A stretch of DNA of 64,000 nt from positions 62,001-126,000 of the forward strand of contig NZ_JACOFU010000004.1 in assembly GCF_014284275.1 (NCBI RefSeq). Reading direction: 5' to 3'. The translations under genes and the position numbers were made by a program. A model generated the notes under the pieces. It ran no database searches. It was not told the origin of the DNA and worked only from the letters and a program-made list of their open reading frames with translations. Positions 48,456 through 51,575 of this stretch are shown in pieces (positions within the stretch are counted from its first letter, which is position 1; each line of letters opens with the position of its first letter). The DNA is from Affinundibacterium amnicola. GTDB lineage: Bacteria > Pseudomonadota > Gammaproteobacteria > Burkholderiales > Burkholderiaceae_D.

Positions 48456-49571
48456 ATGGCATACGTATATGGCGATGGTAGTTATTTTGATGAGAAAACT
48501 AAAGGCTTTGATTCGAATGGTTTGAGTTCGACTTTTAAAGTCCAGCGTGACATGGTGTCATTCGGAAAATTATCTGCCAATGATATGACTGATTGGTACC
48601 AACTCAATCTTGATGGCCCTGGGCATTACTCCATTCTACTATCTACGGATGTCATCAATAACTATAGCAATGCAAACGCGTGGACTGAAAATTTCAGCGG
48701 TATTCGCGTCACTGTCACAGATCGCTATGGCACACCTTTGAGTAGTGTTGATACGAGCGTCGCCAATCTAACGACAGATGGCCTGATCAGTTTTGACTAT
48801 AACGGCGACTATTCGCGTGGTGATTACTTCGTCAAAGTCAGCAATTTGTCTTATGCGCCAACCGATTATGTGATTGGTTTAGAAGCGAGCAAAATGGCAG
48901 GTTTGGATGTGTATGGTAGTTACAACCATGACTATTTGCGTGGTAGTAAAGGGGATGACCATATCGAAGCCTATAGTGGTAGCGACACCATCCTCAACAG
49001 TGCGGGGAATGACTATTTCCATGGTGGCAGTGGGCTTGACTTCCTGATCATGGCTGGCGACATCGATGAGTACAATATCAGCGGTAGCCTGAATAATTTT
49101 ATGATCAAAGACAAGCTTGGCGAAGAAGGCACTGATCAAGTCGTGCAAATCGAACGCTTACTGTTTGATGATTATGCATTGGCGTTCGATGTGAATGGCG
49201 CAGCAGGTCAGGCCTATCGTTTGTACCAAGCCGCCTTTGACCGCAAACCCGATTTGGAAGGACTGGGTTACTGGATCAATAAATTAGACGACGGCATGAA
49301 TCTGACCAGAGTGGCGAATGAATTTTATCGCTCTGCTGAATTCCAAACGCTGTATGGAAGCTACACCAGCAATGCGAGTTTCATCACCACGCTCTATCAA
49401 AATGTCTTGCATCGTGCGCCAGATCACGGTGGCTTTGATTACTGGAACTACAAACTCAATAGCGGCGATATGTCGCGCGCTGAAGTATTGGTGAGTTTCA
49501 GTGAAAGCGCAGAAAATCAGGCGCAAATTATTGGGCAGATCCAAAGTGGGATTGAATATTTGGAGTGGTGA
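48456..49571 (+). CDS. DUF4214 protein, probable type I secretion substrate
   Basis: 371 residues with no N-terminal signal. The first half resembles a bacterial pre-peptidase-like beta-sandwich (D-W-Y-Q-L-N-L-D-G-P-G-H-Y). Near residues 155-190 are degenerate calcium-binding nonapeptide-like turns (R-G-S-K-G-D-D-H-I, N-S-A-G-N-D-Y-F-H-G-G-S-G). The last 120 residues form a DUF4214 domain with two related halves (Y-R-L-Y-Q-A-A-F-D-R-K-P-D and L-Y-Q-N-V-L-H-R-A-P-D). Such proteins are usually exported by type I transporters, but none lies in the window. GGAGAG precedes the ATG. Confidence 0.8.
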   Translation: MAYVYGDGSYFDEKTKGFDSNGLSSTFKVQRDMVSFGKLSANDMTDWYQLNLDGPGHYSILLSTDVINNYSNANAWTENFSGIRVTVTDRYGTPLSSVDTSVANLTTDGLISFDYNGDYSRGDYFVKVSNLSYAPTDYVIGLEASKMAGLDVYGSYNHDYLRGSKGDDHIEAYSGSDTILNSAGNDYFHGGSGLDFLIMAGDIDEYNISGSLNNFMIKDKLGEEGTDQVVQIERLLFDDYALAFDVNGAAGQAYRLYQAAFDRKPDLEGLGYWINKLDDGMNLTRVANEFYRSAEFQTLYGSYTSNASFITTLYQNVLHRAPDHGGFDYWNYKLNSGDMSRAEVLVSFSESAENQAQIIGQIQSGIEYLEW

Positions 49572-50041
49572 GCATCATCATTGGCATCAACATCTTCATC
49601 TTAGTTCTATCAAAGCACATAAACGAGACATTCCTCAATGCGGAACTTCTTTAACCGCATGCAGGAATGTTTTTTTCTTCCGTATTTTATCGATTGAATG
49701 TTCTCAAATAACCTAAGATCCTTTACGACGCAATGCTACAAGAGGCACACTTATTACAATGATTTTTGCGACAAAAATTTAACCTTAATCGAGATTTCCA
49801 ATTTATTATGACTAGTGTTCAGTATCCGCACTAAGTAGTAATTCTAACTTTCCTAGCATCATCACCAATACGCCAATTCAATTTCATCGTAAATTCATCC
49901 ATATCACAGAGATAATTTCCGAATAGTAGATGCCTCGAAGAATCAATATCCTTTCATTGACGAAATTAGCACAACAGCCAACTATTCGCTGTGAATGATT
50001 TTGTCGTGATGAATTATTTTACTCTTAAAAAAGGAGATTTT

Positions 50042-50245
50042 ATGAAACGATTACTATTTGCGTTGGCATGTTCTATCGGTATTGGGATGGCGCTTTCTGC
50101 TAGCGCTGACCCTACACCAGGTCCCGGAGTAGGCTGTCAAAGAGGATGCCAAGCCGCTGCACAAGCTTGTAATAGAAAGGCAAAAACTGACGTAGAACGG
50201 AAAAAGTGTAGCGACAATTACAATGCATGCAAAGCTAATTGCTAA
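50042..50245 (+). CDS. Small cysteine-rich secreted peptide 1
   Basis: 67 residues from the ATG at 50042, chosen because AAAAAAGGAG precedes it; the longer open frame starts without a site. The signal peptide M-K-R-L-L-F-A-L-A-C-S-I-G-I-G ends around S-A-S-A. The mature part, about 45 residues, has six cysteines spaced C-x3-C-x6-C-x12-C-x6-C-x3-C, a symmetric pattern that suits two antiparallel helices joined by disulfides. It is basic and rich in Ala, Lys and Asn. No family was recognised. Its paralogue follows at 50814. Confidence 0.75.
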   Translation: MKRLLFALACSIGIGMALSASADPTPGPGVGCQRGCQAAAQACNRKAKTDVERKKCSDNYNACKANC

Positions 50246-50813
50246 TTTCAAATAGAAAGAAAAATGACTGTGTGATTTTTGTACATCGTATGCGATCGAA
50301 ATATTGAATAAATCATCCTCAAACTATTAGGGGATGATTTTTTCTTTATCGATTAGTGAATCAATCAATTCGAAACGAAAGCACATTCACTCACTCAAGT
50401 TGGAATCAAACTTTGCTTATTTATTGAAACCTCAATTATCGCGGTCATCGCTCATCTGCTAGGTATGCATGTACAAGATATAGAAGATCTTATTCAAAGC
50501 ACGGTTGCAATAAGCACGACTGCATCTGTGTATTTCCGCGGTCCAGATTTAAACTTGATCAAGATTTTTAATTGTCTATGCTTGGTGATCTGTACCTACA
50601 CTAAGTAGTAACTCTAGTTCTTCCTAGCATCATCACCAATATCCCACGCCAATTTTATCGTGATTTCATCGATATCTCCGAGACATTTTCCGAATGGCAG
50701 ACGTAACTCAGAACCCATATTCTTTCGTTGACGAAATTGGTACAACAGCCGTCTGATCGCTGTAAGTAATTTTCGTCGAAATGAACTATTTAATTCTTAC
50801 AAAAGGAGATTTT
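50246..50813 (+). other. Spacer between the two peptide genes
   Basis: Contains the terminator of copy 1 (50311-50344), an unshared stretch of about 250 bases (50350-50598) without a gene, and then the duplicated upstream region of copy 2. Conserved positions are listed under the duplication units. Confidence 0.5.
50311..50344 (+). terminator. Terminator of peptide gene 1
   Basis: AATCATCC pairs with GGATGATT and is followed by TTTTTC. It lies about 65 bases after the stop. Confidence 0.9.
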
Positions 50814-51020
50814 ATGAAGCGATTATTATTGGCTCTGGCGTGCTCCATCGGTATTGGAATGGCGTTTTCTGCAAGCGCAATCAATAATGGGGGCTGCTTG
50901 CAAGGTTGCGGTATGGGTAAAGCTAAGTGTCTGGCAAAAGCAAGCACACCTCAACAAAAACAATCTTGCAACACTTCGTGGGCAAACTGCACAAAGAACT
51001 GCAACAAGCATGGAAACTAG
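50814..51020 (+). CDS. Small cysteine-rich secreted peptide 2
   Basis: 68 residues from the ATG at 50814, which follows AAAAGGAG. The signal M-K-R-L-L-L-A-L-A-C-S-I-G-I-G is nearly the same as in copy 1. The mature part, I-N-N-G-G-C onward, keeps the C-x3-C-x6-C-x12-C-x6-C-x3-C spacing exactly while the residues between cysteines have diverged. Retained cysteine geometry with divergent loops suggests selection for the fold. It ends N-K-H-G-N. No known family was recognised. Confidence 0.75.
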   Translation: MKRLLLALACSIGIGMAFSASAINNGGCLQGCGMGKAKCLAKASTPQQKQSCNTSWANCTKNCNKHGN

Positions 51021-51076: not shown

Positions 51077-51116
51077 TTAAGTCGTCCTCAAATTGCTAGG
51101 GGATGACTTAATTTTT
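51077..51116 (+). terminator. Terminator of peptide gene 2
   Basis: TTAAGTCGTCC pairs with GGATGACTTAA and is followed by TTTTTA. It is homologous to the terminator at 50311 with compensating changes in the stem. Confidence 0.9.
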
Positions 51117-51188: not shown

Positions 51189-51575
51189 ATGAAACTCCCT
51201 CACTATCTTAAACAAAGCCTCTTCTTTATCGTGACGATATTCTTCGGATTTAGCATCGGCTATGCTGTGATCAACTTAAAAGAACTGACAAAGAAATCCT
51301 ACGTCGAAGGAAATTATTCTGAATTCTATGCGGGCACAAAATCTCAGATCATTTTATATGGAACGGCTACTTGCCCTTACTGCAAAGAAGCACGCAACTA
51401 CTTTCACAATAAAAAGATTGCCATCGTCGATTACGATGTTGATATGCATAAAAAAGGAGAGAAAGATTTTCAGAAGCTAGGTGGGGAAATTGTGCCACTC
51501 ATTCTGATTGGCAATCGTAAAATTTCTGGTTTCGATCCTGATGCAATTGATGACGCACTCAAAGCGCTAAAGTAA
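51189..51575 (+). CDS. Membrane-anchored periplasmic glutaredoxin-like protein
   Basis: 128 residues. An N-terminal membrane segment (F-F-I-V-T-I-F-F-G-F-S-I-G-Y-A) is followed by a glutaredoxin domain with active site T-C-P-Y-C-K, cis-Pro region I-V-P-L-I-L-I-G and the G-F-D-P end. It should face the periplasm. It lies about 70 bases after the terminator of peptide gene 2, so it probably has its own promoter. Its proximity to the cysteine-rich peptides makes an involvement in their disulfides possible but unproven. Confidence 0.85.
   Translation: MKLPHYLKQSLFFIVTIFFGFSIGYAVINLKELTKKSYVEGNYSEFYAGTKSQIILYGTATCPYCKEARNYFHNKKIAIVDYDVDMHKKGEKDFQKLGGEIVPLILIGNRKISGFDPDAIDDALKALK

Follow-up and report, generated by a model that had tools for sequence, protein, structure and literature searches.

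Variable six-cysteine peptides encoded beside a glutaredoxin-like gene in Affinundibacterium amnicola and related bacteria

What do two neighbouring small genes make, when both products carry the same mirror-symmetric set of six cysteines? The window, that is the whole stretch of 64,000 nucleotides of Affinundibacterium amnicola DNA that we analysed, contains two such ORFs on the + strand, one for peptide A (67 aa, 50042..50245) and one for peptide B (68 aa, 50814..51020). Both start with a likely signal peptide (residues 1-22 in A, where the cleavage site was judged by eye) and continue with a mature part of the layout C-x3-C-x6-C-x12-C-x6-C-x3-C, giving the spacing 3-6-12-6-3 in both. The identity between A and B is 0.91 over the first 22 residues and 0.26 over the remainder. 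Thus the preliminary description of two adjacent ORFs with palindromic cysteine spacing, near-identical signal peptides and diverged mature parts stands as claimed.

Each gene is preceded by the ribosome-binding site AAGGAG, five bases 5' of the ATG (50031..50036 for A and 50803..50808 for B, both on the + strand). The upstream stretches of A and B, about 220 bases long, are related to each other and to those of the corresponding genes in two further Undibacterium species. A leader hairpin is predicted upstream of A (49959..50005, + strand, RNA fold -15.6 kcal/mol, z -3.26) and another one upstream of B (50730..50777, + strand, RNA fold -14.8 kcal/mol, z -2.22). The matching stretch of locus L069 is also a predicted hairpin (z -3.45), despite several differing stem bases, and the leader hairpins of A and B are possibly an RNA or operator element. 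Terminator-like hairpins follow A (50310..50340, + strand, z -4.17) and B (51080..51108, + strand, z -4.00), the second one lying before a glutaredoxin-like gene. Both were missed by the terminator scan since its loop limit is 8. Because of the related upstream stretches and a terminator-like hairpin of their own, A and B seem to stem from an old duplication and to be transcribed separately. We found no sigma-70-like site between positions 49550 and 51700 of the window, where shuffled sequences would give about 7, and the two genes may use another promoter type. Further upstream (48456-49571) the window encodes a DUF4214 protein with calcium-binding RTX repeats, and an ORF similar to this gene is also located upstream in two other Undibacterium loci, L069 and L070.

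When 5.8 billion proteins were searched with A alone, a single relative was obtained, from Undibacterium danionis, with the x12 loop as in A. A three-row profile retrieved 7 proteins and a 26-row profile 48. The spacing pattern recurs among these bacterial proteins: 48 of the 54 retrieved database proteins have it exactly, a share biased by profiles that were built mainly from exact members. The remaining six are P0041 (4-6-10-6-3), P0052, in which the last cysteine is displaced, and P0006, P0007, P0053 and P0054, which are truncated, fused or aberrant. The retrieved proteins come from Oxalobacteraceae, two Chitinibacteraceae (Andreprevotia and Chitiniphilus) and metagenome records, and one record is labelled as a Pseudomonas fluorescens MAG. 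All protein names shown were "hypothetical" or "uncharacterized", except for one "Kazal-like domain-containing". The latter is the UniRef label of P0041 from Chitiniphilus purpureus, and the layout of this protein suggests a mislabel. In P0006, the first half of a window-type peptide runs directly into the final residues of the glutaredoxin-like protein, the product expected from a deletion that joins neighbouring peptide and glutaredoxin-like genes.

Peptide A had no match in Pfam or NCBIfam at E up to 1, and B matched DUF6520 alone (E 0.79, below the cut-off). When 26 members were compared with the two libraries, three families appeared in each, every one with a single member (best E 0.0053 and 0.021), and no cut-off was reached. 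Among the curated families, defence systems and solved structures searched, none matched the peptides above the cut-off; the PDB sequence search gave no match at E below 0.01. The literature searched contained no bacterial family with this cysteine spacing. The earlier statement that no bacterial family has this exact layout is therefore correct for Pfam, NCBIfam and the literature searched, but it does not hold for the proteins themselves, where an unnamed family exists. As judged from sequence, the peptides form a very variable family encoded beside a glutaredoxin-like gene. The preliminary description had overlooked this partner, as well as the tandem arrays, the variation in the loop and the fact that most members are acidic.

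Running the core peptide profile over 294 genomes of the taxonomic family pointed us to stretches that contain 4, 8 and 18 exact peptide genes. Among 96 distinct mature parts the 3-6 and 6-3 flanks are kept and the loop varies from 7 to 13 residues. Paralogues within four arrays share 0.25-0.29 identity in the mature parts and 0.45-0.60 in the signal peptides. The rows of our alignments A2, A4 and A9 were chosen by the motif, which makes their cysteines invariant by construction; that alignment A4 (79 rows) has no invariant column besides the cysteines is not an effect of this selection. In the first set, each of the 97 distinct exact peptides contains six cysteines and no more. As a control for chance, we counted mirror spacings among the short ORFs of 62 named loci: 3-6-(5 to 16)-6-3 occurred 80 times, and six other mirror spacings 0, 1, 1, 0, 1 and 1 times.

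AlphaFold2 with the family alignment predicted that both peptides fold as an antiparallel two-helix hairpin. The helices span residues 6-24 and 28-44 of mature A (mean pLDDT 84.5) and residues 4-21 and 25-44 of mature B (mean pLDDT 85.7), and the ten-residue block means over residues 11-40 are 91-96 in both models. Relatives with fewer cysteines agree with such a fold. Beside the glutaredoxin-like gene, four-cysteine variants without the outer pair were found in L154, L214, L217 and L233. In L225, L226, L227 and L232, Undibacterium peptides encoded beside the glutaredoxin-like gene have the layout C-x3-C-x13/14-C-x3-C, as if the inner pair were gone; these were matched by position and signal peptide rather than by alignment, and a separate origin is possible. 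Since most four-cysteine variants lack a mirror pair, they hint at the nested pairing C1-C6, C2-C5 and C3-C4. Several variants depart from the mirror-pair rule, namely those spaced 4-6-10-6-3, 2-6-n-6-3, 3-6-n-6-4, 6-7-7 and 6-8-7, and also L100 (CC and one more cysteine), L223 (ten cysteines) and P0007 (five cysteines). The models of both mature peptides, together with the loss of cysteines in mirror pairs, support the disulfide-locked helical hairpin that had been proposed from the spacing. Some genomes with the glutaredoxin-like gene also encode unlinked, likely exported peptides with the layout C-x6-C-x7/8-C-x6/7-C (L236, L239 and L243), perhaps part of a wider four-cysteine family.

The glutaredoxin-like gene begins 168 bases after B (51189..51575, + strand). 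In its 128 aa product a hydrophobic helix at the N-terminus is followed by a linker and then by a glutaredoxin domain with the CxxC motif CPYC, and the protein matches PF00462 with E 7.6e-11 and 42.5 bits, against a cut-off of 22.9. The protein scored below the curated cut-offs of all 17 NCBIfam models listed, among them the glutaredoxin subfamilies YruB, Grx3, NrdH and others; the best was YruB (TIGR02196) with 55.7 vs 88.55 bits. The CxxC motif is present in all 32 glutaredoxin-like proteins compared, as CPFC in 11, CGYC in 10, CPYC in 5, CAYC in 3, CSYC in 2 and CQYC in 1. The net charge is higher before the hydrophobic helix than after it in 29 of the 32 proteins, with three ties, when the start codons picked by our script are used; counting lysine and arginine alone, the part before the helix equals or exceeds the part after it in just 23. 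The protein is predicted to be membrane-anchored, and from this charge distribution its active site is predicted to lie in the periplasm.

How regularly do the peptides and the glutaredoxin-like gene occur together? Each of the three arrays first examined has a gene like the one at 51189-51575 of the window. With the glutaredoxin-like protein alone as bait and the peptides left out, we collected 62 loci in named genomes. The 31 closest loci all encode between 1 and 13 exact peptides (80 in total, none of them on the opposite strand, and the nearest no more than 935 bases away) and the other 31 encode none, a split that was placed post hoc, after the result had been seen. The 31 closest loci belong to Undibacterium, Massilia, Rugamonas, Pseudoduganella, Duganella, Janthinobacterium and Andreprevotia. 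L099 and L100, which lie on either side of the line, have an equal E-value, and L100 and L101, both below it, encode cysteine-variant peptides.

For the second sample of 294 family genomes, which overlaps in species with the first one, a cut-off of 1e-30 was fixed before the scan. The glutaredoxin-like gene was present in 45 of these genomes, as 51 copies in 49 loci. In the stretches read, which measured 3.4 to 18 kb, 36 loci contain exact peptides, 8 contain cysteine variants and 5 contain none. One variant locus has the spacing 3-6-6-6-4, three have C-x6-C-xn-C-x6-C and four have C-x3-C-x13/14-C-x3-C. An adjacent exact peptide is missing in 9 of the 45 genomes, 7 of which were searched for unlinked peptides. 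Exact peptides were found elsewhere in G107 and G242 and four-cysteine peptides in G256, and the genome search of G286 gave no convincing peptide. By genome, exact peptides occur in 38 of 45, four-cysteine forms only in 6 (4 of the 6 having been searched for unlinked peptides), and none was found in 1. The converse was also observed: 13 of the 29 genomes that match the core profile hold exact peptides, and all 13 are among the 45 with the glutaredoxin-like gene, an overlap with a chance of 5e-12 if the two were independent. In G047 and G222 a lone peptide is encoded away from the gene, and another contig carries the gene with further peptides beside it. With such distant peptides in G047, G222, G107 and G242, adjacency is not strict. 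G019, which has a partial peptide match only, gave no glutaredoxin-like gene in a genome that is 73% complete.

We then clustered ORFs of 110 aa or more within 6.5 kb of 32 loci (31 named loci and the window). The glutaredoxin frame was the sole one that recurred in all 32; the next widest cluster covered 27 loci and is an antisense frame that overlaps the glutaredoxin frame in 25 of them. Flanking genes vary by genus. Among these ORFs we saw no exporter, immunity or regulator gene common to the loci, and the combination of immunity and export genes by the peptide that marks a bacteriocin cluster was not found. In Rugamonas rubra (L062:1245-8561), the ribosomal protein genes S10 and L3 enclose an array of eight peptide genes together with the glutaredoxin-like gene and one for a TonB-type receptor, which places this array in the S10 operon region.

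If the peptides were secreted, bacteriocin-like antimicrobials, the glutaredoxin-like protein would be their maturation enzyme. The window peptides are indeed basic (+5 and +6), the arrays contain diverged paralogues, and plant alpha-hairpinins of similar fold include antimicrobial ones, according to the accessible part of PMC7191063. However, a charge of +5 or +6 is found in four peptides of the window type, and among 97 distinct mature peptides 80 are negative, 10 neutral and 7 positive. The peptides are also hydrophilic, with a mean hydropathy of -0.97 without cysteines (96 peptides). We calculated dN/dS for 132 reciprocal-best pairs with identities of 70-99%, the pairs not being mutually independent. 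The value was 0.07 for the signal peptide and, with cysteines left out, 0.30 for the mature part; values above 1 were seen in just 3 of 130 orthologue pairs. Both parts are thus under purifying selection, with the mature part diverging more. The acidity of most members and the purifying selection on close orthologues disfavour ordinary cationic antimicrobials, and the lack of a common immunity or export gene among the ORFs of 110 aa or more also speaks against them, so that we consider an antimicrobial role improbable. A scaffold whose surfaces are relaxed but in use fits better than either an arms race or a classical antimicrobial of the cationic type. Charge, hydrophilicity and dN/dS are therefore the grounds on which we settle on the reading of exported binders that are stapled by disulfides and have a folding enzyme of their own.

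The main rival is a periplasmic thiol or metal buffer similar to metallothionein, in which the cysteines themselves are the function, the glutaredoxin-like protein reduces or recycles them and gene copies serve dosage. Tandem amplification, the constant pairing with a redox protein, the scarcity of constrained positions besides the cysteines across paralogues and the missing common exporter or immunity gene (ORFs of 110 aa or more) would all suit it. Nested inter-helix staples need the mirror 3-6/6-3 spacing, though, and a thiol buffer does not; the purifying selection on non-cysteine mature codons (dN/dS 0.30, 132 pairs) and the lack of a recurrent metal-handling gene by the module (ORFs of 110 aa or more, within 6.5 kb) also make the buffer unlikely. 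The constant pairing could equally be expected if the peptides were electron carriers that relay from the glutaredoxin-like protein to other envelope proteins, instead of being its clients, and a Janthinobacterium subgroup beside the gene even begins with C-x2-C. Most members have C-x3-C, however, three staples in a hairpin of about 45 residues are probably structural rather than cycling, and the strong surface divergence fits a single common redox partner poorly. Such a relay is very improbable.

We favour exported three-staple hairpins that are oxidised or corrected by the glutaredoxin-like enzyme and whose faces have diversified as binders, and we give this reading as a whole a probability of about 55%. 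The tandem genes would encode short peptides that likely reach the periplasm through Sec signal peptides. Each peptide would adopt the predicted two-helix hairpin, likely held by three nested disulfides (C1-C6, C2-C5 and C3-C4), which the glutaredoxin-like protein, with its predicted membrane anchor, likely forms or corrects. In E. coli, glutathione supports periplasmic disulfide formation, as stated in the accessible part of PMC10344953, which cites a 2009 study by Eser on an exported glutaredoxin. The loop and the exposed faces of the helices could vary freely, given that the staples would maintain the fold, and gene duplication would then produce a range of binders, stable and exported, that meet different partners in the envelope or in the surroundings of the cell. 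The sequences themselves show the two ORFs, their spacing, the family with its arrays, the recurring glutaredoxin-like neighbour and, in variants, the disappearance of cysteines in mirror pairs. Export and membrane topology are predictions, as is the hairpin; the disulfide pairing and the role of the enzyme are what we infer, and the binder function is the least certain part. The terminator-like hairpin between B and the glutaredoxin-like gene in the window is a counter-point.

If this reading is true, the unnamed module has two parts, a redox enzyme and a scaffold that is variable nearly everywhere except for its six cysteines. Bacteria would then possess a natural mini-scaffold that is stapled by disulfides and highly variable, a membrane-anchored glutaredoxin-like protein would have its dedicated set of clients, and there would be an example of paralogue expansion in which scaffold and surface evolve separately. 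A conserved enzyme partner used as bait also finds very short, diverged peptides that profile libraries miss. More tentatively, and with more doubt than belief, the arrays of three-staple hairpins with freely diversified faces, which reach 18 genes and in one species lie within the S10 operon, might together with their own membrane-anchored glutaredoxin-like folding enzyme be what venom- or defensin-type multigene families are elsewhere, here in bacteria and as a species-specific repertoire of ultra-stable exported binders.

Disulfide-stapled alpha-hairpins are a fold class already known from other organisms, and the bacterial family with this spacing is unnamed. Twin CX9C and CX3C mitochondrial proteins are disulfide-linked helical hairpins that are oxidised by a dedicated redox enzyme; their spacing differs from that of the window peptides, and the PDB search gave no sequence match at E below 0.01. 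Some bacteriocin clusters, for example that of sublancin, carry their own thiol-disulfide oxidoreductase. Here too a small peptide, with predicted export, is encoded beside a thiol-disulfide enzyme, but the loci differ from bacteriocin clusters in lacking a common immunity or ABC export gene (ORFs of 110 aa or more) and in their Sec-type signals, mirror six-cysteine layout and large arrays. The enzyme has a glutaredoxin fold, passing the PF00462 cut-off and showing the CxxC and VP motifs in the alignment, and it differs from the PF00462 and YruB types by the N-terminal hydrophobic helix with a predicted periplasmic domain. Plant alpha-hairpinins, a group with antimicrobials, trypsin inhibitors and ribosome inactivators, are likewise short secreted peptides with an antiparallel helix pair (both secretion and helices are predictions for A and B) and mirror-symmetric cysteines. 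In the accessible part of PMC11591084 their motifs are CX3CX4-20CX3C for four cysteines and CX3CX3CX4-20CX3CX3C for six, and they pair Cys1-Cys4 and Cys2-Cys3 in the accessible part of PMC7191063. The four-cysteine spacing is also that of the four Undibacterium variants L225, L226, L227 and L232. A and B themselves do not fit these motifs as given in that part of PMC11591084: they have x6 where the six-cysteine motif has x3, and 26 residues separate their two CX3C motifs. Unlike the plant alpha-hairpinins, the present family is bacterial, most of its relatives are acidic, and it is paired with a glutaredoxin-like gene.
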